Source of the DNA: Emcibacteraceae bacterium
GTDB lineage: Bacteria; Pseudomonadota; Alphaproteobacteria; Sphingomonadales; Emcibacteraceae
Length of the DNA: 64,000 nucleotides
Assembly: GCA_021774795.1 (NCBI GenBank)
Contig: JAJFIR010000031.1
Coordinates: 496,001 to 560,000 of the forward strand
Direction of reading: 5' to 3'
In this document: positions 8,500-31,486 of the stretch, in pieces
Numbering within the stretch: position 1 is the stretch's first letter
Layout: each line of letters starts with the position of its first letter
The notes under the pieces: generated by a model
Databases searched by the model: none
What the model saw: only the letters and a program-made list of their open reading frames with translations
What the model was told of the DNA's origin: nothing
Translations under genes and position numbers: made by a program

Positions 8500-9399
8500 T
8501 TGGAATTGATTAGATCATTGATGAACATGATAGCGGCAATAACAATATGCTTTATTGTAACTGCCCCAAACGCATATAGCGCAGATACTAAAGAGGAGTT
8601 TTTGAAATTTCAACAAGCGGCTATGGCAAGCAGCGTCGTAAATAAAGATACTACTAATGAATTTTATAAGCGCTCATTCGAGTATTGGATGGCAAATACG
8701 ATAGCCTATAACGACTCGCCACAAGATTTTAAGGAAATTATGGAACTTTACCATCAGAACCAGGCGAAATACAAACGAGACAGAGCTATAAGAATAGACC
8801 GCTTTGAAAGCACAATTGAAAATTATCGAAGGTTTGATAAGAGAAATAGTTTAGCGCAAAATCCAATTCTTTTTGTCGGAAGTTCCAGCATTGTTTTTTG
8901 GGAAACATCGCAGTCTTTTCCTGAATATCCAGTTATCAACAGAGGGTTTGGCGGCGCAAGTCTTCCGGAAGTTCTTCATTATTACGATGATGTTATTAAA
9001 AAACATAACCCGTCCATCCTTGTGGTATACTGCGATATAGATGTCGAGCGGGGGGAAACACCCGAGTTTGCTGTGAATGCCTTTAAGCAACTGGTAAATA
9101 GGGTTGAATCGGATTTTCCTGAAATTGAAATAATGCTGCTTTCAATGAAACCGACGCTTATTGATGATGTGCTTGGCAAGACCGTCAGAAAGAATAAATT
9201 TATTACCAATGACCTGCTCGCGGCTTATTGCGCGGAGCAGGAAAACCGCCACTATGTTGATATTACCAGCGTGATGATCGAAGAAGGCGCGCGTTTGAAA
9301 GACGAAATTTTTATTGCTGACGGTATGCATATGAATAATCTTGGTTATACATTATGGAACCCGATTATTAAGGATAAAATTTCGAATATATTAAAATAG
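8500..9399 (+). CDS. SGNH/GDSL hydrolase family protein (TTG start)
   Basis: Signal peptide; FVGSSSIVFWE block I; terminal DGMHMNNLGYTLW (D..H). Confidence 0.78.
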   Translation: MELIRSLMNMIAAITICFIVTAPNAYSADTKEEFLKFQQAAMASSVVNKDTTNEFYKRSFEYWMANTIAYNDSPQDFKEIMELYHQNQAKYKRDRAIRIDRFESTIENYRRFDKRNSLAQNPILFVGSSSIVFWETSQSFPEYPVINRGFGGASLPEVLHYYDDVIKKHNPSILVVYCDIDVERGETPEFAVNAFKQLVNRVESDFPEIEIMLLSMKPTLIDDVLGKTVRKNKFITNDLLAAYCAEQENRHYVDITSVMIEEGARLKDEIFIADGMHMNNLGYTLWNPIIKDKISNILK

Positions 9400-9437
9400 G
9401 GACTAGACAATCTTAATTAATATAATCGCTAATCTAT

Positions 9438-9465
9438 TTGACAAACTTTGATTTAATGATACGGT
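9438..9465 (+). promoter_or_regulatory. Putative promoter P1 for micro-ORF 1 (TTGACA-N16-TACGGT)
   Basis: TTGACA 9438-9443, 16 nt spacer, TACGGT 9460-9465. The same layout is repeated at 9647-9674. Confidence 0.5.
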
Positions 9466-9507
9466 TTTTAGTTCATAAGTATTGTAATTAAAGTATAGGA
9501 GGCATAC

Positions 9508-9531
9508 ATGAGCGGCGCACAACCAGTATAA
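9508..9531 (+). CDS. Heptapeptide micro-ORF 1: MSGAQPV
   Basis: ATGAGCGGCGCACAACCAGTATAA, followed in frame by TAATAA. SD AGGAGG at 9497-9502, 5 nt spacing. Paralogous to micro-ORFs 2 and 3. Confidence 0.6.
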   Translation: MSGAQPV

Positions 9532-9568
9532 TAATAAGGCAAAATAATTTCGTATTTTAAATCAAAAT

Positions 9569-9617
9569 ATACATCCCGGATAAGTCGAGTGCGAAACTTG
9601 ATTTTTCCGGGATGTAT
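9569..9617 (+). terminator. Hairpin/terminator after micro-ORF 1
   Basis: Perfect 12-bp inverted repeat ATACATCCCGGA (9569-9580) / TCCGGGATGTAT (9606-9617), followed by TGTTTT. Confidence 0.65.
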
Positions 9618-9646
9618 TGTTTTGGAGGTTAAATTTATCCGTCAAT

Positions 9647-9674
9647 TTGACAAATATATAAAAAAGGCTACCCT
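9647..9674 (+). promoter_or_regulatory. Putative promoter P2 for micro-ORFs 2 and 3 (TTGACA-N16-TACCCT)
   Basis: TTGACA 9647-9652, 16 nt spacer, TACCCT 9669-9674. Distance to the ATG is 69 nt, against 70 nt for P1. Confidence 0.5.
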
Positions 9675-9715
9675 TTTAGAACGATAAATTACAATTTCAA
9701 TTATGGGAGTTTAAT

Positions 9716-9739
9716 ATGAGTGGTGCAAATGACGGCTAG
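9716..9739 (+). CDS. Heptapeptide micro-ORF 2: MSGANDG
   Basis: ATGAGTGGTGCAAATGACGGCTAG. SD GGGAG at 9705-9709, 6 nt spacing. Confidence 0.58.
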   Translation: MSGANDG

Positions 9740-9805
9740 GTTTGCCAAGATGATAATTTTATCATTTAAATAAAAGTATTTATAACAATAGTAGAGGAGA
9801 GTCTT

Positions 9806-9829
9806 ATGAGCGGCGGCAATAAAATATAA
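9806..9829 (+). CDS. Heptapeptide micro-ORF 3: MSGGNKI
   Basis: ATGAGCGGCGGCAATAAAATATAA. SD GAGGAG at 9794-9799, 6 nt spacing. Confidence 0.58.
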   Translation: MSGGNKI

Positions 9830-9875
9830 ATCAATAGGAAATCGGTTAAAGAATCGATTCTAAAGCTAAAAAAAC

Positions 9876-9928
9876 ACATCCCAAAAAATGTCGAAATTAT
9901 TTTTCTGATGTTATTGGGATGTTTTTTT
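9876..9928 (+). terminator. Intrinsic terminator after micro-ORF 3
   Basis: ACATCCCA (9876-9883) / TGGGATGT (9915-9922), ending in a 7-T run (9922-9928). Confidence 0.7.
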
Positions 9929-10068
9929 ATGCGCTACTTTGTTTATAAAGAAATATATTGTATCATTTTAAAACAAGTTTTTAAGGATAATTTAATTTAA
10001 GCCTGCTATCTAAAATATCGATGAAAATATAATAACTATATATAAATTAAGCAGAAATCTTTTACGAT

Positions 10069-11505
10069 ATGAACAATAATAATCTCATTTTTGTGGATCT
10101 TGACGGTACGCTAATCAAAACCGATTTGCTGTTCGAGTCTGCTTTAAAATTTATTAAGAAAAACCCCCTCAATATTTTTCTTATCTTTATCTGGTTGTTG
10201 GGGGGAAAATCAAATCTGAAACATAATCTGGCCAACCGTATCGAAATCGATCCGGAAAGCTTGCCATATCAAAATCAATTGTTGGGCTATCTCAAGGAGC
10301 GCAAGAGTAATGGCGCATCCCTTATCCTTGCAACAGCGTCCCACGCAAAATATGCGAATAGTATTGCTCAGCATTTGGGTATTTTTGACAACATTATTGC
10401 GACGGATGCGCAACATAATATGAAAGGCACCCGCAAACTTGAAGAAATAAAGATTGTAGCAAAAGGGTCCTCTTTTTCTTATGCCGGAGACAACAAAGCT
10501 GACCGCCCCATTTGGCAGGCGGCGACAGGTAATATATTTGTTAATGCGCCAAAGTCAGACATTGAGCACGCAAATGCCAACAACAAAACAGAAAAAATAA
10601 TTGAAACACGTGATGTGCGCCCTTTTAACGCATTTGTAAAAGAAATGCGGCTGCATCAGTGGGCCAAAAATGCGCTAATATTTGTTCCTCTTTTTGCCGC
10701 CCATGAATATGGAAATCCGGCATTATTCTTAAACGTTGTTCTTGCATTTATTAGTTTTAGCCTATGTGCGTCAGGTGTGTATTTTCTGAATGATCTTTTG
10801 GATATAAGTGCAGACCGTCAACATAAAACCAAGAAAAACAGGCCGCTGGCATCGGGTGATTTATCAATACCCTTGGGTGCCGTTGGTGCGTTGCTGTTGC
10901 CCATTGTAGCGTTTCTCATCGCAATAGTATTTTTATCAACCAATTTCGTAATAGTATTGGGCATATATCTTTTAATTACTAATGCGTATTCCTTCTTTTT
11001 GAAAACTGTTTCCACAGCTGATGTTATGACATTGGCCGTTCTGTATACGATGCGCGTCGTTGCCGGATCTGCTGCTACAGGCATTATACTATCATCATGG
11101 TTGATGGCTTTTTCAATATTTGTTTTTGTCAGTCTCGCATATCTAAAGCGCTATATAGAACTTTCTGCCTTGCAGGGGGATGGTAACCAGACGCATGGTC
11201 GCGGTTATTCGGCCGCTGATAGCGAAACGATGTTCGCGCTCGGTATTTCAAATGTAACGGCATCTGTACTGGTGCTGGCATTCTATATAAATGATGATGA
11301 AGTGACAAAACTTTATAGCACACCTGAAATATTATGGGCCCTGTGTTTACTCATACTATATTGGGGTAACCGTATATGGGTTGGTGCCCGACGGGGAAAG
11401 ATATCCGATGATCCAGTGGTATTTGCGATTAAGGATAAAGTAAGTAGGATGGTTGTTATATTATTTGTACTGGTCGCGGTTGCTGCCAAGTTTGTCAAAC
11501 TTTAA
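10069..11505 (+). CDS. HAD-domain + UbiA-family prenyltransferase fusion (DPPR-synthase-like)
   Basis: N-terminal FVDLDGTLIKTD (HAD motif I); UbiA helices with NDLLDISADRQHKTKKNRPLASG. Confidence 0.85.
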   Translation: MNNNNLIFVDLDGTLIKTDLLFESALKFIKKNPLNIFLIFIWLLGGKSNLKHNLANRIEIDPESLPYQNQLLGYLKERKSNGASLILATASHAKYANSIAQHLGIFDNIIATDAQHNMKGTRKLEEIKIVAKGSSFSYAGDNKADRPIWQAATGNIFVNAPKSDIEHANANNKTEKIIETRDVRPFNAFVKEMRLHQWAKNALIFVPLFAAHEYGNPALFLNVVLAFISFSLCASGVYFLNDLLDISADRQHKTKKNRPLASGDLSIPLGAVGALLLPIVAFLIAIVFLSTNFVIVLGIYLLITNAYSFFLKTVSTADVMTLAVLYTMRVVAGSAATGIILSSWLMAFSIFVFVSLAYLKRYIELSALQGDGNQTHGRGYSAADSETMFALGISNVTASVLVLAFYINDDEVTKLYSTPEILWALCLLILYWGNRIWVGARRGKISDDPVVFAIKDKVSRMVVILFVLVAVAAKFVKL

Positions 11506-11517
11506 GGGAGTTTTTTA

Positions 11518-11892
11518 ATGTCTTATCTGGTTCTGGGATTAATCCTATTGACGGTTACTTTATCGGCTTGCGCGCAACTGGCATTGAAGATTGGCGTAGA
11601 AAAACCACAAATGGCGGCGGCGATGCAGGCAGGCATTGTTGATTCATTAATAGGGGCGATGGTGTCGCCTTTTATATGGGTGGGACTAATAATTTATAGC
11701 TTAAGTGTCGCAATGTGGCTTTGGGTATTGGCTAAAGTGGACTTGTCGGTCGCTTATCCTTTTGTTGGGGTTAGCTTTCTGATAACTATGGCTTTTGGTT
11801 ATTTTCTGCTTGACGAAAATGTCACGCCAATGCGTATTTTAGGAACAGTCCTCATAGCATCAGGGTGCGTACTTGTCGGGAAATCAGCTTAA
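11518..11892 (+). CDS. Small EamA/SMR-like membrane protein
   Basis: 124 aa, four TM segments, LSVAYPFVGVSFLITMAFGYFLLDE. Confidence 0.7.
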   Translation: MSYLVLGLILLTVTLSACAQLALKIGVEKPQMAAAMQAGIVDSLIGAMVSPFIWVGLIIYSLSVAMWLWVLAKVDLSVAYPFVGVSFLITMAFGYFLLDENVTPMRILGTVLIASGCVLVGKSA

Positions 11893-11918
11893 TATAATTA
11901 AACGAAAGGTTTAATTCG

Positions 11919-13184
11919 GTGATCAAGGCATTTTTAAATAGTGAGAAACTAGTGCTGGTTTCACTTTTGCTGCTTGCTTTTGTGCTGCAGTTGAGCACTG
12001 TGATCGTCTTAGATCTGGAACAGCTAACTGATTTTGTTGGTTATTTGAATATGGCAACTTCCATGCTCGAAACAGGACATATGCAAGATGGTCAGGGCAA
12101 TGTAGCATTTTATAGCGCTGGATGGCCGTTATTTCTTGTTCCTTTTTTTGCGCTTTTTGGTTCGACAATGGAAGTGGCGCAATATGTCAACGTCCTTCTG
12201 GGAACAGCAAGTGTTTATTTGGTTCATTTATGTACCAAGGAAATATTACCTAATTGGAAATGGGCCGCGGTTTCAACTTTTATTTGGGTAACATACCCAC
12301 CAACAATTTTATATACAGAATATATTGCAAAAGAAAATCTGATGGTACTGCTGATGCTTTTGCAATTATTGTTGGCTTTGAAATATACTAATAGTAAGAA
12401 TAAAATTGTTTCTTCAATCTTACTTGGTGTTGTATTTGGGTATCAGCTTATCGTCGGACCGGCGGTGATTCTAACCGGTGCGATCATTGGCATCATAATT
12501 CTAAACATTCATCTCAAGAATAATTTCTGGACAGTACTTTATTGGCGGCCTGCGTTCATTTTTCTATTGGCAACATTTATTACATTAATACCCTGGTTGA
12601 TTTATACGGATAGTGAATTGGGGGAACCAGTGCTGAACACTAATGGTTCGTTCAACCTCTATATAGGTAACAATCCCAACGCAGAGCCATTTTTTATTAA
12701 TATTGATGAAACACCGATCGGAGATGGCTGGCACGAATTAAAAAATACCCAAGGCGGGGAACTTGGCATCAGTAAATATCTTAAAAAAGAAGCGTTAAAT
12801 TATATATTTGAAAATCCCGGCCGAACGTTCCTTTTGTCCGTACAGAAAGTTATTTATTTTTGGATGCCGCCCTTTCACGAAGGAAAAGAAGGAAATCAAA
12901 GTCTTCTTGAAACTTTGGTCAGGATCGTTTGGGCGATTTCATATTGTATTATTATGTTATTCGCTCTCATTCCATTATTCTTTTACCGTAATCTCAATCG
13001 TTCTCATCTAATTCTCTATGGTACAGCACTTATGTATTGCGGCATTCACGCGGCAGCATACGTGATCTTCCGCTACAGGCTACCTATTATGCCTATTATG
13101 TGTATTTTGGCGTCGCAAGGTTTATATTACTTATATATTTGGTGGTCGAATAAGAAAGATAATGGTACCACCGAGCTGGCTTAG
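11919..13184 (+). CDS. GT39/PMT-like polytopic glycosyltransferase
   Basis: 421 aa, many TM segments, GWPLFLVPFFALFG, extended luminal loops. Third gene of the UbiA cassette. Confidence 0.65.
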   Translation: MIKAFLNSEKLVLVSLLLLAFVLQLSTVIVLDLEQLTDFVGYLNMATSMLETGHMQDGQGNVAFYSAGWPLFLVPFFALFGSTMEVAQYVNVLLGTASVYLVHLCTKEILPNWKWAAVSTFIWVTYPPTILYTEYIAKENLMVLLMLLQLLLALKYTNSKNKIVSSILLGVVFGYQLIVGPAVILTGAIIGIIILNIHLKNNFWTVLYWRPAFIFLLATFITLIPWLIYTDSELGEPVLNTNGSFNLYIGNNPNAEPFFINIDETPIGDGWHELKNTQGGELGISKYLKKEALNYIFENPGRTFLLSVQKVIYFWMPPFHEGKEGNQSLLETLVRIVWAISYCIIMLFALIPLFFYRNLNRSHLILYGTALMYCGIHAAAYVIFRYRLPIMPIMCILASQGLYYLYIWWSNKKDNGTTELA

Positions 13185-14020
13185 AAAGTTTTATTTAAGT
13201 TCCAGTCATAGGAAAGAAATCTAACTCTAAAGTCACCCGATTTAATTAAATTAATTTCGTCATCAGATAAATTAAGCAGAGATGCGTGTTTAGCGAAATA
13301 TTCCTTTAGATTATTGATATTTTCGTCACTCTTCTCAAAATCAGAACGGTACCATCTAAATATGGTCGAAACTCTAAGTTGATTATCATCCAGATAATTT
13401 TTTTCTTTATCACTAAGAAAATTTCTCATTTGTTCGTTTAATTGATCCTCTAATTTATCACCCTCATAGGCTTCTTGGCGCAGGGCTGGACAGCTAATAC
13501 TGGCGCAATTAAGGGCAAAATGCACACGAGATTCGTTATACCGATCTGATTTTAATATCAGTTTTTTTTCAATATCGTCGAGCGAAATTTGATTTCCAAA
13601 TAATGAAACAATGTCTTTACCGAATGCGGTGAAAATAAAATTCCCTAAATCACGAACAGACTCTATATCCGGATACCCCGTTAGAACCAGTTCAATGGTC
13701 CAAGCATTATAGGCATTTATCAGAAAAGCCAGCTGGTCGGGTTTTGGCCAACTATCAAACTCATCCTGTGTTATTTTTGCCAGATTGTTACGGTATGTTT
13801 CTAGCTTTGCGCGGTCATTAACGAAGCCGTCATAATCAACTTGGCTTGATTTTCCGCCATTTAGCACGCGCACATGTTGATTTAATAAGCTGGTCCATTC
13901 ACTGTGATTGAAAGTTTGCGCAACGCTGTGGTTACTGACAAATAGCGCGAAAATTAAAACGAGCGGTAATTGATACATATTGGTTCCATTAAACGATATT
14001 GATATTAAAACTGATATCAT
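13181..14020 (-). CDS. DUF547-family secreted protein
   Basis: LAFLINAYNAWTIELVL and HFALNCASISCPALRQEAY motifs. Likely real start is the internal MYQLPLVLIFALF. Confidence 0.8.
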   Translation of the reverse strand: MISVLISISFNGTNMYQLPLVLIFALFVSNHSVAQTFNHSEWTSLLNQHVRVLNGGKSSQVDYDGFVNDRAKLETYRNNLAKITQDEFDSWPKPDQLAFLINAYNAWTIELVLTGYPDIESVRDLGNFIFTAFGKDIVSLFGNQISLDDIEKKLILKSDRYNESRVHFALNCASISCPALRQEAYEGDKLEDQLNEQMRNFLSDKEKNYLDDNQLRVSTIFRWYRSDFEKSDENINNLKEYFAKHASLLNLSDDEINLIKSGDFRVRFLSYDWNLNKTF

Positions 14021-14098
14021 GAATACACTACGTAATGAAATCTGCCAGTAAAATTAACTCACTAATCTGTGATAGGATGAAATCGCCGTTTATCGACC

Positions 14099-16147
14099 CT
14101 AGAATGAGCCTTTAAGCCTGATGCGGAACCTTTTATCAAAATGTTGATCTCTGCTTTCTATAAAACTGATCATACCGCTTGCACGTGATGGATTATAAAG
14201 CGTACGAATGCGCCCTTCATTTGCATTTACCAAATTATCTACGGATGCGATTAGGACCATGTTTTTAAAGATTTTATAGTTGATGCTTAAGCTCAGATAA
14301 AGACTATCATGGTCCACATCAGTAAGTTGATCGATGGAATGCACTTTGTTTGGCCCGTAATACCAGAATTGAAAACTATAACTTAATCCGTATTTTTTCA
14401 TATCATGCCTTAAAATTCCGGTTGACGAATAACTTCGCTGATTATTAAAGGCTCTGTCTATACCTGTGAAAGGATCGGCTGTATTTGTGTCAAATAATTC
14501 GAAACTTCCGTCTAGGACAACATTTTCGAGACCTATAAATCCAAACCTAAGGCTCGTGCTGATGGTTGCGACGTTTCGTGATGCCTGACCAACATTACCA
14601 ACACCCGCAATGCCAGGTGCTACTTCCACCAATTCGATATGATCTGATATTTCTTCGTGTTTTAAACTGAGTTTTACGTGACCTTGATCATCCATAAAAC
14701 GATGCTCGACAGAAGTTTCAAAACCCCAAGCCTTTTCAGGAACCAGATTTTGATTACCCCCAAAAAAAATATTATCTTTGTCGACAGAAGCAGCAAAATC
14801 ATTAAAATCAAGTTGTGAAATAGTACGGCGAATTGAGAACTGAAATTGGTTCTGCGGGTTTATATCGTAGCGTAAATCGACGCTCGGTTTTATGTAAGAG
14901 AAAGCTTCGGATCGATCACGTGTTATACTCATCTGCGAAATTTTTGAATATTCATATTTTAATTCACTATCCAATCGTAGCCTACTATTCATTTGCCATG
15001 CGTAATTTATGAAACTATCTGACCTGATTTCCTGCACGATGACCAGTGTATTTGGGTCAAGTCCTGCTTCAACCCTGTTATAGGCTATTTCTGTTCCCAA
15101 ATTTAATTCACTCCCGCGTGTTGTTTTGTAGGTAATCGACGGTCTTAATATTGCTTCTTTGGCGTTACTGAAGAAAACCGTATCACTGTCATATATTAGC
15201 GGGCTTTCAGTTATGAGGGCGTCTCGTTTTTGAATGGTTTTAGCGTTACTTTTGGAATAAAGACCTACAATTTTATAATCCAGATTGGGCGAAAAATTTC
15301 CGATATAGTCTCCGCTTACTTCAAAGCCAGGCGTGTCGGTTACAAAGTTTTGAATAGCTCTTCCGCTGGATAAAAAAATGCCGCCAGGAGAATAGTTGAT
15401 GACATTGCCATTCCAATCCGTCTTTGATTTGCTATTCGTTAAACTGGCATTGAAGTGAATTTGATCATTATTCGCGAGCTTATATGTTGCATTGGCTGAA
15501 ATAGAACGATCATGAAAATACTGATCACCCCTATCTGTCAGAACACTTTCTGTTATTGCGTTAGAGTTAGTCACCGTATCAATACGATTATAATCGGTAA
15601 TAAATCCTGATTGCGCGACCTCGACGAAATAACCAAGACGACCTTTGGAGCCGCTATATGATATTGCCCCGAGCGGGAAAAGGCGGCCGCTGGGAAGGAT
15701 GCGTGATCCGATATCAAAAGTCGCGCTACTGGATGATTTATCTTCCTCCAGGACGATATTCATCATCGCTTCCTGACTTGATATTTTAATATCCGGTGAC
15801 GCACCGCGAATTATCTCTATTCTGTTTACTTGAGAAATAGATATTCGTCCCAAAGCAGCCTCACTGCTATTGTTTTTTCCAGACAGTCTTTTGCCATTGA
15901 TTAATATGCCGTCATCATTACTGGTAAATCCACGGGCGGCGTTATCGCGCCGGCCAAGAATGACTTGCCCGCCGGGTATTTTAATAGCGAGATCAAGCGC
16001 CGTCACAGCGTTAGTTATATTTGAAAGATATTCTTTATCATAAACAGTGACGCTGCTTTCATTTGCGCCCACTGTTTGTGCGTCGCTAGAACTGGTCGAC
16101 ACTATAAACAAGCCTATGATAAGCACAAATCTTTTCATTTTAAGCAC
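14099..16147 (-). CDS. TonB-dependent-receptor-like outer membrane protein (plug + beta barrel)
   Basis: Signal peptide; plug-like GGQVILGRRDNAARGFTSNDDGILINGKRLSGKNN...RIEIIRGASPDIK; alternating barrel strands; ends in F. Confidence 0.75.
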   Translation of the reverse strand: MLKMKRFVLIIGLFIVSTSSSDAQTVGANESSVTVYDKEYLSNITNAVTALDLAIKIPGGQVILGRRDNAARGFTSNDDGILINGKRLSGKNNSSEAALGRISISQVNRIEIIRGASPDIKISSQEAMMNIVLEEDKSSSSATFDIGSRILPSGRLFPLGAISYSGSKGRLGYFVEVAQSGFITDYNRIDTVTNSNAITESVLTDRGDQYFHDRSISANATYKLANNDQIHFNASLTNSKSKTDWNGNVINYSPGGIFLSSGRAIQNFVTDTPGFEVSGDYIGNFSPNLDYKIVGLYSKSNAKTIQKRDALITESPLIYDSDTVFFSNAKEAILRPSITYKTTRGSELNLGTEIAYNRVEAGLDPNTLVIVQEIRSDSFINYAWQMNSRLRLDSELKYEYSKISQMSITRDRSEAFSYIKPSVDLRYDINPQNQFQFSIRRTISQLDFNDFAASVDKDNIFFGGNQNLVPEKAWGFETSVEHRFMDDQGHVKLSLKHEEISDHIELVEVAPGIAGVGNVGQASRNVATISTSLRFGFIGLENVVLDGSFELFDTNTADPFTGIDRAFNNQRSYSSTGILRHDMKKYGLSYSFQFWYYGPNKVHSIDQLTDVDHDSLYLSLSINYKIFKNMVLIASVDNLVNANEGRIRTLYNPSRASGMISFIESRDQHFDKRFRIRLKGSF

Positions 16148-16250
16148 CCAGAAATTATCGACTAATATTCAAATTAATCGTCAGGACTCGTTAATGAAAT
16201 GCGGTTGCAGGGAAACGACCTTTAAATGCAGTTAAACAGTAAGCTAGTGA

Positions 16251-17087
16251 CTAATTATCCAATATTTGTTGCAATTTTTGACGACCAGATTTGCTAATGG
16301 CACGTTCAATTCCGTTTCTTAGGTGGACGATATGTTTTCTGTTTTCGACTTTTTCGATCAACTCAACTTGTTTAATGTTAACGATCGTTGATCTGTGTAT
16401 ACGTAAAAACTGGTCTCCGGGTAGCGACATATCGAAAGAATTTAAGGATTGGCGGACCAAGTAATTATTTGAATTTGTATGCACGCGGCAACAATAATCT
16501 TCTGCTTCTATCCAGAGAATGTCCTTGGTCGCTACGGAAGATTGCCTTCCTGTTGTTTTTAAAAGCAGGTAATCCGCTCGCACTGATTTTTCATTATTGT
16601 CTACCGGTGAAATACTGAGCAGTTGACGCAAGGCAAATATACCGAGCAACATCCAATAGAACAGAAAATCACATATTGCCCACATGATGAAAAAGAACAG
16701 GAATGCTCCATACCGCGTATTGTCTGCTCCGAGGAAAGGGCTAAAATTGCTGCTGATAACAAAAAACCATCCTCCATGAACGACCATCAACATTACGCAC
16801 GCTGAAATGTGTCTTAATATCCAGTGGAATACTAATTGCTCAACTATTGGGAAACGATGATCCAGGATATTTATAAATTGCCCGAATATCAACCACGGTG
16901 ACCATACTAGCATTTGCCACCACAGGACATTTATAAAAGAAGCGGCATAAGGCGCATCAAGAACACGTGCATATATTATGACTGAAAACGCTAAAATGAT
17001 AACGATCGTGCCCAGCAATATAATGTGAATTCGTTTCACTTTATTTATCCTTTTTCCACAGAATCTCCTGAATAGAGCCTGCCTCAC
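16251..17087 (-). CDS. Membrane-anchored LytTR-domain transcriptional regulator
   Basis: N-terminal TM helices; C-terminal LWIEAEDYCCRVHTNSNNYLVRQSLNSF...FLRIHRSTIVNIKQVE. Confidence 0.85.
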   Translation of the reverse strand: MRQALFRRFCGKRINKVKRIHIILLGTIVIILAFSVIIYARVLDAPYAASFINVLWWQMLVWSPWLIFGQFINILDHRFPIVEQLVFHWILRHISACVMLMVVHGGWFFVISSNFSPFLGADNTRYGAFLFFFIMWAICDFLFYWMLLGIFALRQLLSISPVDNNEKSVRADYLLLKTTGRQSSVATKDILWIEAEDYCCRVHTNSNNYLVRQSLNSFDMSLPGDQFLRIHRSTIVNIKQVELIEKVENRKHIVHLRNGIERAISKSGRQKLQQILDN

Positions 17088-17160
17088 AGACTTTACTGAG
17101 CTTCAATCACCTTGTCTTTATAAAAATAAAAAAGTAAACTTCCCAAGCAGGAGCGCTGAA

Positions 17161-18132
17161 TTGAAAAAAAAGACAAGAGAAAAATTCGTACCAAGTGACG
17201 CCCAAATGGCGTTGATGCCCGACGTATCAGGCAACGATATTAATGGTCTTGGTGAAACAACAATTCGACGCCCTTCCCCCATCTACTGGCAAACACCGGA
17301 ACTCACACCATTTGGGCCGCTGATGAAGTTTTTCGAAGATAACGCCCCGCCGGATGAGCAGCTTTATAAAACTCAAATGGATACAAATAAGATTAGAGAG
17401 ACAAAAGTTATGCCAAAATCATCAGTCCGGATTGATAATTTTGCTTCCGAATGGTCGAAATTGGTCAAGAAGGTTGGTACTGATGCTGGGGCTGTGGCTG
17501 TGGGTATCACAAAGATGCGCCCGGAATGGGTAATTGATACATTTGAAGTGCCCTACGAAAACGTCATCACCGTTGGGGTTGCAATGGATTTTGAAAATCT
17601 TAAAACGGCGCCGAACGTGCCTTCCGCGATAGAAGTTATTAAACAATATGGTCGCGCTCATTTTGTGACGCATGAGATTGCTAATTGGATACACGGAAAT
17701 GGCTGGAACGCCATTTCTTACGGTGGTTCAAATAACGTTCCAATTCTACTCATACCCCCTGCTCTTGAAAGCGGGCTAGGGGAACTTGGTAAGCATGGAT
17801 CACTCATTAACCGCGAAAATGGCTCTGTATTAAGGCTTGGTGGGCTCATTACAGACATGCCGCTCAACTACGATAGCGTTGATGAATTTGGCGTAGATGA
17901 TTTTTGTCTTAACTGTAAAGCCTGCCAGAATGCTTGTCCGCCGGAAGCGATTCATTCAGACAAGAAAATGGTTCGCGGTGTCGAAAAATGGTATGTGGAT
18001 TTTGATAAGTGTCTTCCGTTTTTTAATGAAAATACCGGCTGTGGTATTTGTCTTGCCGTTTGCCCGTGGAGCAGACCCGGTGTACCAGCGAACCTAATAG
18101 CAAAGCTCGCAAAGAAGAAAAGCACCGGCTAA
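17161..18132 (+). CDS. Reductive-dehalogenase-like protein with two 4Fe-4S motifs
   Basis: CLNCKACQNACPPEAI and C-x7-GCGICLAVCPWSRP; upstream ELGKHGSLINRENGSVLRLGGLITDMPL typical of RdhA-like proteins. Confidence 0.72.
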   Translation: MKKKTREKFVPSDAQMALMPDVSGNDINGLGETTIRRPSPIYWQTPELTPFGPLMKFFEDNAPPDEQLYKTQMDTNKIRETKVMPKSSVRIDNFASEWSKLVKKVGTDAGAVAVGITKMRPEWVIDTFEVPYENVITVGVAMDFENLKTAPNVPSAIEVIKQYGRAHFVTHEIANWIHGNGWNAISYGGSNNVPILLIPPALESGLGELGKHGSLINRENGSVLRLGGLITDMPLNYDSVDEFGVDDFCLNCKACQNACPPEAIHSDKKMVRGVEKWYVDFDKCLPFFNENTGCGICLAVCPWSRPGVPANLIAKLAKKKSTG

Positions 18133-18145
18133 TTATTTTATTTGT

Positions 18146-19465
18146 CTAGACTTTAATAGTGGCGATTAAAATAGAAGCCAAAAGAACCGGCAGTGCAAAT
18201 ACCGTAAATAACGAATACATGCTGAAATTTAATGCAACCAGATAGCCTGCTATAATTGGTGCGGCGATTGCGCCCGTGCGCCCTAACCCGGCACACCACC
18301 CAATACCGGTCGATTTAATAGAAGTTTCGTATGTACGTGCGGCAACAGCGTACATAGCACTAAAGGCACCATTAAGAAAGATACCGATTAAAAATATCAA
18401 AATATATAACATCATTAGTTCGGTTGGTTTTGATAGAGTAAAATAAACCATCAGGATGCCGGTAGCCGCAAAAAATGTGCTAATGGGCCATCTTAATTTA
18501 TAGCGCGTTGTGATGAGGCCGATACAAGTTGTTCCGAATACCGCTCCCAAATTACTTATTGTTAAGGCATAAATGCCTTCACGCATTGTCCAGCCACTGT
18601 TGACAAAAAGTGAGGGAATCCAGGAAATAATAAAATAAATCCCTAGAAATCCCATGAAGAAAATAATCCAAAGTTTTATAGTAGTCACCATAAGTTCGGC
18701 GGATAAAAGGCTTTTGACATTAGCGGCCTTGATTTCTCTGTGCCCTTCTAAAGTGGGCAGCTGGTCAATTGGCTGACGTTTAATACGCTTCAGAACCTTA
18801 TTTATAGTCCTCATTTTAACATCACTATCTTGGTTACTGCTTGCTATATATTGCACTGATTCAGGTAGCAACCAATAAGTAACAATAAATAAAACAAGTG
18901 TAGCAACCCCGCCGAAAATAAACAACATTTGCCACCCCAATGCCGGTAAAATAACGGCGGCAATTGGTCCGACAATCATTGCGCCAAATGGATATCCTGA
19001 AATAATTACAGTGACCGCCAGATTTTTAAACCGTTCCGGAGTAAATTCGCTGCCAAAAGTAGCGGCACTGGCAAAAATAGCCCCTATTCCGAGGCCGGAT
19101 ACGGCACGAACGAATATCATAAGCTCTACAGACCGGTCAATAAACCCGGTTACTATCATCGAAATTCCGGTGAGGAACATAGAAAAAAGAACTATTTTTC
19201 GACGACCGTAGACATCACTTAAAGGTGCTAAAAACATCGCACCTAACGCCATACCAATAAGGGCCGCACTTAAAATATAACCAACCTCAACCGGTGATAT
19301 ACCCCAACTTTGGCTTAGAGACGGGGCTGCTACAGATATGGCAATCACATCAAAACCGTCAACACAATTTAATAAAAAACCCAGAGAAACAATCGACACC
19401 TGCGCAAATGTCATTGGTCCATTATTGATGCGGTCCCTGATAAGGTCAGACTGTTGATTATGCAA
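18146..19465 (-). CDS. MFS transporter, AAHS (aromatic acid:H+ symporter)-like
   Basis: NCVDGFDVIAISVAAPSLSQSWGI and PLSDVYGRRKIV. Confidence 0.8.
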   Translation of the reverse strand: MHNQQSDLIRDRINNGPMTFAQVSIVSLGFLLNCVDGFDVIAISVAAPSLSQSWGISPVEVGYILSAALIGMALGAMFLAPLSDVYGRRKIVLFSMFLTGISMIVTGFIDRSVELMIFVRAVSGLGIGAIFASAATFGSEFTPERFKNLAVTVIISGYPFGAMIVGPIAAVILPALGWQMLFIFGGVATLVLFIVTYWLLPESVQYIASSNQDSDVKMRTINKVLKRIKRQPIDQLPTLEGHREIKAANVKSLLSAELMVTTIKLWIIFFMGFLGIYFIISWIPSLFVNSGWTMREGIYALTISNLGAVFGTTCIGLITTRYKLRWPISTFFAATGILMVYFTLSKPTELMMLYILIFLIGIFLNGAFSAMYAVAARTYETSIKSTGIGWCAGLGRTGAIAAPIIAGYLVALNFSMYSLFTVFALPVLLASILIATIKV

Positions 19466-19505
19466 GCTAAGATTATCCCTTGTGGTGAATATTTATTATT
19501 ATGAA

Positions 19506-20054
19506 TTACTGTGGCGGCGGGTTCAGACTAAACGAATCTATAACGATTTTCCAGCCATTATCGGGTTGCCGTTTCCAGACAGAAGCATATTTACCGTGCT
19601 GTTTGCTTACCGATCCGTCAGCTTTGATTGTGTTGATAGAAAAAGGACCCCACGTATAACCAAGATCGCCGGAAATATCGCCTGCCTCTGGCTCCCAGGT
19701 TACGGTGGTATTTGGTTTGTCACCGGCATCTTTCAATATTGCTGCTAGCCCTACTTTTGGTGCTTCTCCGGGCGGCAATGTCACTGCATCATCAGCAAGA
19801 TATTTGGCAAAAGCCTTATAAGTACCGTTCTTTAGTCGGTATTGAACGAATTCCCGATCAAGTGCAAATAGCGTTTCGATGTCATCCTTTTCTTGTGCAA
19901 GCGCAGCGAAGGGTGTGACGAATATGAGTACCAGTATAATTTTAAAGAACTGCATTTTTTTCTCCAATTTCAATTTACGATTTGAAGGTACCATAATTGC
20001 TGGTTCAAACAACAAACGAATTTTTGAAGCCAAATGTGACATTATGGTTAGCAC
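19506..20054 (-). CDS. SnoaL/DUF4440-like secreted protein
   Basis: FALDREFVQYRLKNGTYKAFAKYLADDAV...GKYASVWKRQPDNGWKIVIDSFS. Likely start at the internal MQFFKIILVLIF. Confidence 0.72.
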   Translation of the reverse strand: MLTIMSHLASKIRLLFEPAIMVPSNRKLKLEKKMQFFKIILVLIFVTPFAALAQEKDDIETLFALDREFVQYRLKNGTYKAFAKYLADDAVTLPPGEAPKVGLAAILKDAGDKPNTTVTWEPEAGDISGDLGYTWGPFSINTIKADGSVSKQHGKYASVWKRQPDNGWKIVIDSFSLNPPPQ

Positions 20055-20164
20055 CAGTTTTTTTAGGTGCCTTTTTATGTTTACGATGAATTAGTAACGC
20101 CCGTTTGACATGTGACTTGTTTCCCGCATATTGTCTACTCGTATATATAATTTAGGAGAGCGAT

Positions 20165-22375
20165 ATGTCCGCTTTAAAACAACGTCTTTTTACATTACTC
20201 ATTTTGATCACGGTCTCGGCATGTAGTTCTGAGCAGGTGACGGGGCCTTCTTCGGATGAGGTGATATCGAGCCAAGCTCAAAATGTAACCATTTATCGCG
20301 ATGCATACGGCGTACCGCATATACACGGTAACACTGACGGTGATACCGCTTTCGGTATGGGATACGCGCAAGCGGAAGATAATTTCAATCAGCTTGAGCT
20401 TGGTTTTATTATGGGCATTGGCCGTTCAGCCGAAGTTCTCGGCGAAAAAGCGGTGCTCGCAGACTGGGTGGTTCATTCCTTTGAAAATACGATGCTCTCA
20501 AAAAGGGATTACGAAAATGCGACACCTGCTGTAAAAGCGTTACTCGATGGCTACGCCGCGGGCATTAATTATTATATTGAAACGCACCCTGAACTGGAAG
20601 TTAGATTACTTGATCACGTTGAACCCTGGTATTCACTCGCGCTTATTCGTCGCTGGTATCATCTGGGTGGTTTTTTGGGACGTCTCAGGTTCACTATGGA
20701 GGAACGGACAGCGGCCTTTGAAGCCATTAACGGCGAAACATTGAAAATGGCTCAGCTGGAAATCCCCAAATATGATCCAGAAGACAGAAAAGAATTTGGC
20801 TCAAACTCCTGGGCGGCAAACGGATCAAAAATAGATGACACAGGTTCATACCTGTTTATTAATCCGCATCTTCCTGCTTTTGGCATTGGGCAAACATATG
20901 AAGCACATATGATGTCGGCCGAAGGATGGAATTTTACCGGTTACGCAAGGTTCGGTTATCCGGTTCCTTATATTGGTTTCAATGAAAATCTTGGTTGGAT
21001 GAGTACAGATAACTTCAGCAATCAGGAAGATAGCTGGATTGAGCATTTTGACGATCCGGAAAACCCGCTTTCATATACTTATGGTGACGGTACACGCGAT
21101 GCAACCGAATGGACGGGTGAGATTAAAATCAAAGGTGGAGAAGTTCGCACCGTAAAGTACCGCAGAACCCATCATGGTTCCGTGGTCGCCATGCGAGATG
21201 GGAAATTTTTATCAGGGATGATGGCGCGTATGGATGAACCGGGCTGGCTTGATCAATGGTATAATATGGGGCGTGCTAATAATATCGATGAATTTACCAA
21301 AGCGATTGAACCGCAAGCTATGCAGTTCGGTAATATTATGTATGCGGATCGCGATGCTAATATCTGGTATATTTATAACGGTGCCGTTCCTATAAGAACA
21401 GAAGGATTTGACTGGAACACGGCGGTTGACGGAAGCAATCCTGATACAGATTGGAAAGGCTATCATACACTTTACGATTTACCACAAGTGAAAAATCCGG
21501 TTTCCGATATGATGCAAAATACCAACACCAGCCCATTTATGGTGAGCATGTCAGAAAGCGATGCCAAGGAAGAAAACTACCCGACTTATATGGTTCGCGA
21601 GGGCGACAATGCAAGAAGCCGAAATGCAAGACGCATATTAAATAAACACGACAAATTTGACTTTGCGACCTGGGAATATGAAAGCCTTGATACGACAATG
21701 ACAGAATGGCCGGTTTCAAAACCGATCATCATGGACGCATATACTGCTACATCCGCTGAAAATTCTGAACGCGCTACGAAGCTAGCACCCGTTATCGAAA
21801 TGCTCGAAGCATGGGATGGTGTCGCGTCACTTGAGACACCGGAGCCAACAATTTATGTAGATTGGTATGAAGGTCTATATCGTCCGCAACCACGTGGGTA
21901 TGAAGCATCGAACGAGGAAATAATTGTAGCTCTTGAGCAAGCGATGGATAAACTAGTGGGAGACTGGGGAACTTGGCAAGTGGCGTGGGGTGAGATGAAT
22001 AGGTCGCAAAGACCTCCTCTTGATGCAAGCGGCAATCCAATTTTTGATGATAATGCTGACAGTATTGCGACGCCGGGTGTGCCAAGCTGGTCTGGCGGCA
22101 GTCAAATTACCTTTAACCTTCGGCGCGACGGCTTGAAAAAGCGCTATAAAACGGGTGGAAATAGTTATACGGCCATTGTTGATTTTCCAAATGATCGGAA
22201 TCAAAGGACCCAATCAAAATCTATCCATGTATTTGGTGCAAGTGCCGATCCAGGTTCACCAAATAATATGGATCAGGCAGCAATGCTTGCAGCTAAAAAA
22301 TATAAAAATGCATGGTTATATCTTGACGATGTGAAAGCAAATGCGTCAAGATTCTACCATCCGGGGGAGGAATAA
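20165..22375 (+). CDS. Penicillin acylase family (Ntn hydrolase) lipoprotein
   Basis: Lipobox ILITVSACSS; YRDAYGVPHIHG; nucleophile region FGSNSWAANGSK. Confidence 0.88.
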   Translation: MSALKQRLFTLLILITVSACSSEQVTGPSSDEVISSQAQNVTIYRDAYGVPHIHGNTDGDTAFGMGYAQAEDNFNQLELGFIMGIGRSAEVLGEKAVLADWVVHSFENTMLSKRDYENATPAVKALLDGYAAGINYYIETHPELEVRLLDHVEPWYSLALIRRWYHLGGFLGRLRFTMEERTAAFEAINGETLKMAQLEIPKYDPEDRKEFGSNSWAANGSKIDDTGSYLFINPHLPAFGIGQTYEAHMMSAEGWNFTGYARFGYPVPYIGFNENLGWMSTDNFSNQEDSWIEHFDDPENPLSYTYGDGTRDATEWTGEIKIKGGEVRTVKYRRTHHGSVVAMRDGKFLSGMMARMDEPGWLDQWYNMGRANNIDEFTKAIEPQAMQFGNIMYADRDANIWYIYNGAVPIRTEGFDWNTAVDGSNPDTDWKGYHTLYDLPQVKNPVSDMMQNTNTSPFMVSMSESDAKEENYPTYMVREGDNARSRNARRILNKHDKFDFATWEYESLDTTMTEWPVSKPIIMDAYTATSAENSERATKLAPVIEMLEAWDGVASLETPEPTIYVDWYEGLYRPQPRGYEASNEEIIVALEQAMDKLVGDWGTWQVAWGEMNRSQRPPLDASGNPIFDDNADSIATPGVPSWSGGSQITFNLRRDGLKKRYKTGGNSYTAIVDFPNDRNQRTQSKSIHVFGASADPGSPNNMDQAAMLAAKKYKNAWLYLDDVKANASRFYHPGEE

Positions 22376-27792: not shown

Positions 27793-28644
27793 ATGTGTCC
27801 AGCCAATGTGGAAGACGGACATCAAAGGGGTTTTATCGTTCCCATTGGTGGTGCCGAAAATAAGGAAACAAATCCTTCAATTTTAAGAAAATTTACGGAA
27901 ATATCCGGTGGCAAGAATGCTACGATCGTAATCATTCCGACCGCGTCAAGACTTGACGATACAGGTGACCGCTACGAAGAAGTTTTTAAAGAACTTGGTG
28001 CGCGGGAAGTCAGTCATATGCCTATTACAAGCAGGGAAGACTGTAATAATCCCGAATTTGTTGAACGGATTGAAAAAGCAACGGGGATATTCATTACGGG
28101 CGGTAACCAGCTCCGATTAGCGACAGTTCTTGGTGGCACAACCGTTTCACAAGCCATAAGAACGGCAAATGCGCGCGGCGTTCATATCGCGGGCACGTCA
28201 GCCGGCGCGTCCATCATGTCTGAACATATGATAGCAGGCGGAGATTCCAACGAGCCGCCGAAAGAAGGCGGCGCGACATTAGCCCCTGGGCTTGGCCTGA
28301 CTAATGCGATGATTATTGATCAACATTTCTCCGAAAGAAACAGATTAGGTAGATTGTTATCGGCTGTTGCCTTCAACCCGTTTTTAATGGGCATAGGGAT
28401 TGATGAAGATACAGGGGCATTCATTGGCCCGGATGACATTTGCGAAGTGGTTGGTAGTGGCACCATTACGGTTATTGACGGCGGGGAGCTTACTTATTCA
28501 TCGGCGTACGGAACCGATACCGGTAAGGGACTTGGTTTGCTTGGGTTAAAACTGGATATTTTGCATGAAGGATGTTTTTATGATTTTAACATCCGTGAAG
28601 CATTTCCACCGGTTGAAGATCGGCAAAATATTTGCAAAATATAG
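27793..28644 (+). CDS. cphB: Cyanophycinase
   Basis: FIVPIGGAENK, GIFITGGNQLRL, GTSAGASIMSEHMI (serine nucleophile), immediately upstream of cphA. Confidence 0.92.
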   Translation: MCPANVEDGHQRGFIVPIGGAENKETNPSILRKFTEISGGKNATIVIIPTASRLDDTGDRYEEVFKELGAREVSHMPITSREDCNNPEFVERIEKATGIFITGGNQLRLATVLGGTTVSQAIRTANARGVHIAGTSAGASIMSEHMIAGGDSNEPPKEGGATLAPGLGLTNAMIIDQHFSERNRLGRLLSAVAFNPFLMGIGIDEDTGAFIGPDDICEVVGSGTITVIDGGELTYSSAYGTDTGKGLGLLGLKLDILHEGCFYDFNIREAFPPVEDRQNICKI

Positions 28645-28684
28645 TTGATATCACTTCAGATAAATAAAGAGAAAGAGGGCCTAA

Positions 28685-31486
28685 ATGAAAATATTGAAAA
28701 CGAACCTTTATTTAGGGCCCAATCAATTCGCCAAATTTCGGGTAATTCGTCATGTTCTCGATATCGGTGTGCTCGAAGATTGGCCTTCCGTTAAATTAGG
28801 AGCCAAATTTATCGATGGCCTTATTCTGGCACTTCCCGGCCTCGAAGAACATGGCTGTTCCTACCGTGAACCGGGTGGATTTATAAGACGCCTTAGGGAA
28901 GACGAGGGCACGTGGATCGCCCATATCACCGAACATGTGGCGTTGGAATTACAATGTGTGGCAGGTAATGAGGTAACCTTTGGCCGCACACGGTCAGCCG
29001 GCGAGGTTGGCCATTATAATATGGTCTATGCTTATATTCACAAAGATGTAGGGTTAGCGGCGTGTGAACTGGCTATTAAACTCCTAATTCACTTGATGCC
29101 TAAAGAAATACAGGATCAAACCGGATATGAGATTGATGACGAATTTGACTGGGACGAAGAGCTAAGAAAGTTCATCCGGGAAGCGCAAAGGCACGCTTTT
29201 GGTCCGAGTACGGCGTCTCTCGTTGCAGCAGCGGAAGAAAGAGACATCCCCTGGCTTCGCCTCAACAAATACAGCCTCGTTCAATTTGGACATGGTAAAT
29301 ATCAGAAAAGAATTCAAGCCACAATTACCAGTGAAACCAATCATATTGCCGTTGAAATATCGTGTGATAAGGAAGACACTCATAATCTGCTGAATGATCT
29401 GGGACTTCCTGTCCCGCAACAATACATGATTTATGGTGCTAAAGATGCCATTAGAGCGGCGCGTAAAATGGGATATCCTGTTGTATTAAAGCCGCTAAAT
29501 GCCAATCATGGTCGCGGCGTATCGATCAATCTGACCACTGATGAAGAAGTCGAAACCGCGTTTGATGTTGCAAAAGAACAAGGAACCAGCAGGGCGGTTC
29601 TGGTTGAAAGTTATATGACCGGATTTGATCATCGGATGCTGGTGGTTAATAATGAATTAGTCGCTGTCGCCAAGCGGGTGCCGGGTCATATCGTTGGCAA
29701 CGGAAAAAATACTATTTCTGAGCTGATCGATATTGTTAATGAAGATCCAAGGCGCGGTGTTGGGCATGAAAAAGTGCTAACCATTCTTGAAATAGACAGC
29801 CAAGCAACCAGGTTGATGGATAATGCAGGCTATAATGCGGAAACGGTTCTTAAAAAAGATGAAACTTTTAATCTAAGAGACACCGCCAACCTTTCAACCG
29901 GTGGTACCGCCATCGATTTAACCGATGTCGTGCATCCGGATAACCGTGAAATGGCTATTCGGGCGATTATGGCGGTCGGACTTGATATTGGCGGTGTTGA
30001 TTTTTTAACCGATGATATAAGTCAATCCTATAAGGATATTGGCGGCGGAATTGTTGAAGTAAACGCCGCACCCGGATTTAGGATGCATGTGGCACCTAGC
30101 GAAGGTGAGCCAAGGGATGTATCGGGTAGAGTTATGGAAATGCTATTTCCACCTTCCACACCGACAAAGATACCAATTGCCGCAATAACCGGTACTAACG
30201 GTAAAACGACAACCTCCAGAATGCTTGCCCATATCATTAAGACATGCGGTCATACGGTTGGGTTAACGACCACAGACGGTATTTATGTTGACGGGAAATT
30301 AAGTGTTAAAGGGGACACTACGGGTCCAAGATCTGCGCAAATGGTTCTTCGTGATCCAACGGTCGATTTTGCTGTCCTTGAAACGGCGCGCGGTGGTTTG
30401 GTACGTAACGGTCTTGGTTATGCAAGCACAGATGTTTCCGCGTGTCTAAACGTTGATTCGGATCATCTGGGCCTTGGTGGTATTGATACGTTGGAAGAAT
30501 TAGCGAAAATCAAACGTGTGGTCATCGAAGCGGCAACAAGAACCGTCGTGTTAAACGCCGATGATAAGAATTGTTTACTTATGGCAGATTATGCAGATGC
30601 GGAGCATATTATGTATGTCACCATGCATCATGATCATGCATTGGTAAAACAACATATTGATGCGGGCGGCAAAGCATGTGTAATTGAAAAAGGCATGAAC
30701 GGCGATTTAATTACCATTTACGATAACCTTACCCACATTCCAATATTATGGTCCCACCTTATCCCGGCAACCATCGAAGGAAAAGCGCTTCATAATGTGC
30801 AAAACGCCATGTTTGCAACCGCTATGGCCTATAGTTTTGGTCAGGACCTTGATCAAATAAGGCAAGGGCTTCGAACATTTAACACGACTTTCTTCCAGGC
30901 ACCGGGCCGGATGAATGTTTTCGATGAACACCCGTTTCGGGTTATTCTTGATTATGCGCATAATGCAGCGGCTTTTAAGGTTCTTACTGATTTGGTTGAT
31001 AAGTTGGACACACATAACCGTAAAATGATTGTTGTATCCTGCCCTGGTGACCGAAGAGACGAGGATATTGCGGAAGCAGCGGAAGTGCTTGCTGGTCATT
31101 ATGATCACTATTATGTCAAGGCTGATGATAACAGGCGCGGTAGAGGAGATGATGAAATCCCGCAACTTATAAAAGCCGGTTTAATTGGAAACGGTGTTGG
31201 CGAAGATACCATAACCGTTATTCCTGATGAGGTTTCAGCGATTGAGGCGGCACTTGCGAATGCTAAAGAGAAAGATCTTTTGGTTGTCATAGGCGACAAT
31301 GTTACACGTTCCTGGAAACAAATAATCAATTTTGGTGGGGATGGTGATAATCCTACAGAATCTAATGCAGATAACGAACCGCAAATGGCAGTCGCATATG
31401 ATGATTTAATAGACGATACTCAGCAAATTATCAGTGATGAACGCGGCGTTCGACTGGCCCGTGACGATGATGAAGATGGTGATTAA
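28685..31486 (+). CDS. cphA: Cyanophycin synthetase
   Basis: 933 aa. Cyanophycin N-domain, ATP-grasp (GYPVVLKPLNANHGRGVSINL), Mur ligase (AITGTNGKTTTSRMLAHI). Confidence 0.95.
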   Translation: MKILKTNLYLGPNQFAKFRVIRHVLDIGVLEDWPSVKLGAKFIDGLILALPGLEEHGCSYREPGGFIRRLREDEGTWIAHITEHVALELQCVAGNEVTFGRTRSAGEVGHYNMVYAYIHKDVGLAACELAIKLLIHLMPKEIQDQTGYEIDDEFDWDEELRKFIREAQRHAFGPSTASLVAAAEERDIPWLRLNKYSLVQFGHGKYQKRIQATITSETNHIAVEISCDKEDTHNLLNDLGLPVPQQYMIYGAKDAIRAARKMGYPVVLKPLNANHGRGVSINLTTDEEVETAFDVAKEQGTSRAVLVESYMTGFDHRMLVVNNELVAVAKRVPGHIVGNGKNTISELIDIVNEDPRRGVGHEKVLTILEIDSQATRLMDNAGYNAETVLKKDETFNLRDTANLSTGGTAIDLTDVVHPDNREMAIRAIMAVGLDIGGVDFLTDDISQSYKDIGGGIVEVNAAPGFRMHVAPSEGEPRDVSGRVMEMLFPPSTPTKIPIAAITGTNGKTTTSRMLAHIIKTCGHTVGLTTTDGIYVDGKLSVKGDTTGPRSAQMVLRDPTVDFAVLETARGGLVRNGLGYASTDVSACLNVDSDHLGLGGIDTLEELAKIKRVVIEAATRTVVLNADDKNCLLMADYADAEHIMYVTMHHDHALVKQHIDAGGKACVIEKGMNGDLITIYDNLTHIPILWSHLIPATIEGKALHNVQNAMFATAMAYSFGQDLDQIRQGLRTFNTTFFQAPGRMNVFDEHPFRVILDYAHNAAAFKVLTDLVDKLDTHNRKMIVVSCPGDRRDEDIAEAAEVLAGHYDHYYVKADDNRRGRGDDEIPQLIKAGLIGNGVGEDTITVIPDEVSAIEAALANAKEKDLLVVIGDNVTRSWKQIINFGGDGDNPTESNADNEPQMAVAYDDLIDDTQQIISDERGVRLARDDDEDGD

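Follow-up and report, generated by a model that had tools for sequence, protein, structure and literature searches.

The window analyzed here is a stretch of 64,000 nucleotides (nt) from an Emcibacteraceae bacterium (contig JAJFIR010000031.1, positions 496,001 to 560,000), and the gap between its SGNH/GDSL hydrolase gene (end 9399) and its HAD-UbiA gene (start 10069) contains three open reading frames (ORFs) of seven codons that all begin with Met-Ser-Gly. These mini-ORFs lie in two compact units at 9438-9930: unit A, with a putative promoter, one mini-ORF and a terminator, is upstream of unit B, with a putative promoter, two mini-ORFs and a terminator. Orthologous units are present in two other species of the genus, and conservation, as judged by sequence comparison, demonstrates the promoter form, the Shine-Dalgarno sequence (SD) and its spacing, the start codon, the Ser-Gly codons, the stop position and the terminator. 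Ribosomes are likely to use the mini-ORFs. We tentatively favor the reading that the peptides are the selected product of free-standing tandem minigenes.

Two proposed transcription units in the window

A preliminary description of this DNA had reported three seven-codon Met-Ser-Gly ORFs with strong SDs, the first ending in three in-frame stops, and all of these are present as described. It had placed them within 325 nt; the ORFs are real, but the measured span is about 322 nt. It had also treated them as one tandem array, whereas they are divided between two transcription units with the following elements, all on the forward (+) strand.

9438..9465, +, putative unit A promoter: TTGACA at 9438, 16 nt, TACGGT at 9460, then a T-run; the form recurs in the relatives
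9497..9502, +, SD AGGAGG of mini-ORF 1: GGAG 6 nt from the ATG, invariant in 7/7 copies
9508..9531, +, mini-ORF 1, MSGAQPV: stop TAA, then two further in-frame TAA
9564..9631, +, predicted unit A terminator hairpin: arms 9564-9590 and 9596-9622, T-rich tail; from inverted repeat and fold
9647..9674, +, putative unit B promoter: TTGACA at 9647, 16 nt, TACCCT at 9669
9705..9709, +, SD GGGAG of mini-ORF 2
9716..9739, +, mini-ORF 2, MSGANDG: stop TAG
9794..9799, +, SD GAGGAG of mini-ORF 3
9806..9829, +, mini-ORF 3, MSGGNKI: stop TAA; ATG 90 nt past that of mini-ORF 2, the same distance as in relative G010
9870..9930, +, predicted unit B terminator hairpin: arms 9870-9887 and 9911-9928, T-run; from inverted repeat, with a stem common to both relatives

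The distances from SD to ATG are 5, 6 and 6 nt if the SDs are bounded as AGGAGG, GGGAG and GAGGAG, and 6 nt in each case if measured from the GGAG core. The elements of both units escaped generic scans for promoters and terminators; the unit A promoter was missed because its -10 region departs from TATAAT. The promoters and terminators are called because the same elements recur in other species.

Orthologous units in related species

Searching 60 related genomes located the tandem unit in two of the 13 other genomes of the genus. The unit of G010 (contig JAUIDN010000007.1) encodes MSGAIN and MSGAVT, with ATGs 90 nt apart, and that of G011 (contig JAGREE010000012.1) encodes MSGDKV and MSGAQV, with ATGs 75 nt apart. 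Both have the sequence TTGACA-N16-TAYNNTTTT, an SD, two mini-ORFs and a terminator. The promoter sequence occurs with the same spacing in all four units of the three species, and its TTGACA, TA and TTTT columns are invariant. The terminator stem is common to unit B and both relatives, with two-sided change in four of its 14 pairs. The copy set used below thus comprises seven mini-ORFs in four units of three species, all from draft assemblies.

Four-fold sites in the flanking genes of the window species are identical at 27% in the comparison with G010 and at 37% in that with G011. These sites are saturated; therefore the features that survive in the units reflect selection rather than recent descent. 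All seven copies keep GGAG, a six-base spacer and ATG-AGY-GGY-G, and in each of them the reading frame first meets a stop at codon 7 or 8. The spacer is fixed in length, with no invariant base, and in the other two frames the distance to the first stop ranges from 0 to 53 codons. Given a local stop-codon frequency of 0.088, the in-frame stop position would arise by chance with a probability of about 0.14 per copy, which gives about 1e-6 for seven independent copies or about 4e-4 if the four units are counted, values that serve as guides since the copies are related.

The constant head and variable tail proposed earlier hold for the family as a whole: Met-Ser-Gly is fixed, and variation is free in the final two or three residues. 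The last sense codons are GTA, GGC, ATA, AAT, ACT, GTT and GTT, so that the peptides end in V, G, I, N, T, V and V. The codon drift noted between copies (AGC/AGT for Ser, GGC/GGT for Gly) is likewise real. A length of exactly seven codons is true in the window, but the mini-ORFs of the relatives have six; MSGAQPV and MSGAQV are one whole codon apart. Codons 2 and 3 are AGY GGY and are not A-rich, which we count in favor of the peptides, as A-rich codons favor initiation alone.

Between these conserved islands the transcript is poorly conserved; within the RNA, conservation is confined to the terminator and to the mini-ORFs and their SDs. Comparison among the units gave no common fold beyond the terminator hairpin. 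The preliminary description had proposed that relatives be used to distinguish a coding unit from an RNA conserved for its fold. Since SD, ATG, frame and stop position are kept, and only the terminator fold is common, this comparison favors coding.

Two further observations concern the relation of unit A to the tandem units. RNA A has a perfect 12-nt complement, at 9541-9552 just past mini-ORF 1 (AAAATAATTTCG), to the terminator loop of unit B at 9892-9903 (CGAAATTATTTT). This segment is A+T-rich, about 0.1 such pairs are expected by a rough estimate, and the relatives, having a single unit, offer no check. To judge from 9508-9640, unit A may also be a tandem unit that has lost the part between its two mini-ORFs, as MSGAQPV resembles the second G011 peptide, MSGAQV, and the upstream part of the unit resembles the regions of first ORFs.

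Rarity of the pattern and distribution

The pattern RGGAG-N6-ATGAGYGG has only three matches in the 3.93 Mb genome, each inside the same 320 nt, and a reversed control pattern gave none, so that the cluster is not a product of chance. On both strands of the window there are six ORFs of 3-12 codons preceded by GGAG-N4-8-ATG; three are the mini-ORFs and the others encode MPC, MHFN and MRLKD.

Beyond the two congeners, no convincing copy was found in the other 11 genomes of the genus or in 19 genomes of the family, and a sequence model built from the promoter and mini-ORF 1 added none in the family that was convincing. In a sample of the order (401 genomes) the tandem pattern matched three genomes outside the genus, where the matched sequence reads on with no early stop; a sample of the class (395 genomes) gave no copy. 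A promoter-pattern scan of one genome per GTDB species found the unit only in the two congeners, at the sensitivity used. Most of the other matches in that scan run into longer ORFs. A Chitinophagaceae match (MSGRILI) is inside an apparent protein-coding gene, and a Brevibacillus MSG match has three codons only. Candidates in congeners G004 (MLTGNK) and G005 (MSGLYIS) were dropped as they are antisense within ordinary genes. The idea of a phage or plasmid element was also discarded: at the sensitivity used, phages gave none, plasmids gave one chance-like match of 39 nt, and among nine pattern matches in viral contigs none had two mini-ORFs.

Gene neighborhood

In all three species the unit is located in the same gene neighborhood, partly rearranged or reduced, which contains genes for an SGNH hydrolase, a reductive-dehalogenase-like 4Fe-4S protein, a TonB receptor, a LytTR regulator, an MFS transporter, a DUF4440 protein and a penicillin amidase. 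The slot differs, however: the unit follows the SGNH gene in the window, precedes the amidase gene in G010, and in G011 follows the 4Fe-4S gene and faces a TPR-like gene. The downstream gene is accordingly HAD-UbiA in the window; in G010 it is a penicillin amidase gene that has a TTGACA of its own, and in G011 the TPR-like gene, which is convergent and lies on the opposite strand. The HAD-UbiA/EamA/GT39 cassette had been described as a neighbor and not a proven partner; these genes are not partners, since they do not adjoin the unit in the other two species. Some congeners have parts of the neighborhood and lack the unit, so no neighbor is an obligate partner. In a tree of the linked penicillin amidase the three carriers do not form one clade, with modest support, and losses or transfer are therefore likely.

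Several other features of the window were noted. The neighborhood at 8500-22375, often reordered in the genus, looks like a cluster for uptake and hydrolysis of an amide or ester. The 421-residue multi-pass membrane protein encoded at 11919-13184, labeled GT39 in the preliminary description, matches nothing in Pfam or NCBIfam at E 0.001. Adjoining proteins of 283 and 933 residues (27793-31486) resemble, by eye, cyanophycinase and cyanophycin synthetase.

Possible roles of the units

From the conserved elements we infer that the units would be transcribed and translated, with repeated initiation, and that the peptides would have a function, possibly after export or modification. A sigma70-type promoter would direct synthesis of a short RNA ending at the intrinsic terminator, of about 160 nt for unit A and 255 nt for unit B. 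This RNA would bear one or two ORFs of 6-7 codons, each with a strong SD; ribosomes would begin at every ATG and stop after 6-7 codons and, by analogy with mccA, the shortness of the ORFs would probably let them restart repeatedly on the same SD. The outcome would be abundant short peptides of the form formyl-Met-Ser-Gly-(Ala)-x-x, acting as effectors inside or outside the cell or as precursors of a modified small molecule. Still more tentatively, one or two such formyl peptides of six or seven residues, constant in their Met-Ser-Gly head while the tail diversifies, may be all that the whole transcript from promoter to terminator exists for; this would constitute an alphaproteobacterial peptide signaling or effector system of minimal size.

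Several points weigh against a peptide as the selected product. The sample is small: there are only seven copies, and they come from draft assemblies of three species. Fold prediction places the ATG of several copies partly in base pairs (unpaired 0.16-0.71). The tails are not conserved even at orthologous positions, so that three or four residues would have to carry any peptide specificity. The unit has no constant companion that would serve as a dedicated modification, export or receptor gene, and G004 and G005 are among the congeners that have the same neighbors without it. Finally, all five Ala codons at position 4 are GCA, whereas of 38 orthologous GCA codons in the flanking genes only 7 have stayed GCA; this suggests some constraint at the nucleotide level. 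The third positions of the Ser and Gly codons vary between C and T only; this is expected for Ser and is weak evidence for Gly (orthologues of GGY codons in the flanking genes are GGY in 66 of 111). Conservation may therefore be partly at the RNA level.

Such constraint would suit a regulatory RNA, or one with a dual function, in which the mini-ORFs are translated as a device and the peptide is incidental, a reading that we regard as somewhat less likely. Ribosome traffic would protect, expose or position the RNA, or the RNA would hold initiating ribosomes; it would act in trans, perhaps by pairing through AUGAGYGGYGCA. The kept GCA agrees with this, as does the C/T-only variation at the two synonymous sites, where a G in a partner RNA could pair with either base. 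Free variation of the tails while SD, start, length and terminator stay is also in keeping with this reading, as are the conserved promoter form and terminator stem, which indicate a stand-alone transcript as far as sequence can tell, and minigenes that can work through ribosome occupancy are known (PMC8708949). Those minigenes, however, act in cis on a downstream gene, and none is constant here. Complements of the conserved 12-mer in the window number 15, against 15.2 expected by chance, the terminator is the only conserved fold, and a spacer of fixed length and free sequence suits a ribosome-binding site (RBS) better than a pairing seed. We consider it unlikely that the units encode a purely non-coding small RNA whose SD, ATG and stop are unused by ribosomes, for example a mimic of a translation start that titrates anti-SD small RNAs. 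In favor of this, alphaproteobacterial RNAs of 160-255 nt that have their own promoter and terminator usually belong to the small RNAs, and anti-SD loops pair naturally with GGAGG. Yet the in-frame stop at codon 7 or 8 in all seven copies, unmatched in the other frames, and the exact 6-nt spacing with free bases are difficult to reconcile with an untranslated RNA, and an Rfam search of the window gave no match to a known RNA family at gathering score. A CsrA/Rsm sponge was excluded because PF02599 is absent from seven of seven genus members tested, with a positive control.

A mini-ORF followed by a terminator is the classic layout of an attenuator, and in the window and G010 a gene on the same strand lies downstream. 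A cis-acting leader for that gene is nevertheless very improbable: the three species have three different downstream genes, one of them convergent, and the slot of the unit differs as well. Nor is there a common alternative antiterminator fold or a run of codons for one amino acid. Precursors of a nucleotide-peptide antibiotic like microcin C, which the peptides resemble in size, strong SD and conserved length with unconserved sequence (PMC6495379), are the least probable of the alternatives. The preliminary description had judged this not to be a standard microcin C locus, and we agree. No MccB-type ThiF-family adenylyltransferase was detected among the scanned flanking genes in the window, and the sole ThiF-family protein above cut-off in each carrier genome (G000, G010 and G011) passes the cut-off of the NCBIfam MoeB model; the gene for this MoeB-type protein adjoins a coaBC-like gene. 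Six of the seven peptides lack a C-terminal Asn, with MSGAIN the exception. A modifying enzyme of a novel kind, unrelated to MccB, may nevertheless exist.

Comparison with known minigenes

The closest parallel to the tandem minigenes proposed here is mccA (MRTGNAN) and its seven-codon relatives, precursor genes that have a strong SD and a conserved length with unconserved sequence, and for whose mRNA about 71 translation rounds were measured in vitro before it dissociated (PMC6495379). Our units share seven codons, a strong SD, length under selection, variable sequence and termination after the mini-ORF, and are short enough for repeated translation without dissociation. With 6-7 codons and strong SDs they agree with the 7-8 codons typical of mccA, except that the relatives are one codon below that norm. 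Unlike them, mccA stands first in an operon that includes mccB, and its defining feature is a C-terminal Asn, the residue modified by MccB; our units have neither an operon nor MccB, Met-Ser-Gly is fixed at the N-terminus and the ORFs are mostly tandem pairs.

The leader minigenes axe-txe mg2 and the six-codon LEE4 leader minigene (PMC8708949) are similar in having ORFs of two to six codons, a strong RBS, AU-rich RNA and ribosome traffic as a possible function. They affect a downstream cistron, whereas our units have a terminator, no fixed downstream gene and conserved residues 2-3. Toxic minigenes, which act through release of peptidyl-tRNA (PMC8708949), are also very short ORFs with a strong SD, but their toxicity is greatest when the ORF has two codons and is governed by the final sense codon, which varies among our copies. 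The rnTrpL/peTrpL system of Sinorhizobium meliloti (PMC7298713, PMC10117765) is another alphaproteobacterial small RNA with a tiny ORF, and its peptide acts in trans; that ORF, however, has 14 codons, is leaderless and derives from trp attenuation, while those described here have 6-7 codons, are SD-led and tandem, and have their own promoter. As judged from a literature search of open papers, there is a fair chance that this variant of the minigene or small-mRNA kind is undescribed.

Implications

Genes of 6-7 codons fall below the length cut-offs of annotation, escape it, and are normally indistinguishable from noise. In this case the orthologues have diverged to saturation at synonymous sites, and their comparison reveals selection on the start site, on Ser-Gly and on where the stop lies; the existence of free-standing genes of 6-7 codons is therefore directly testable. 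The units would rank among the smallest genes known. If the peptides act, a search rule is suggested that consists of an SD, an exact spacer, ATG, a short conserved head, an in-frame stop and a terminator, and the lower size limit of independent protein-coding genes would be extended past the operon-bound mccA.
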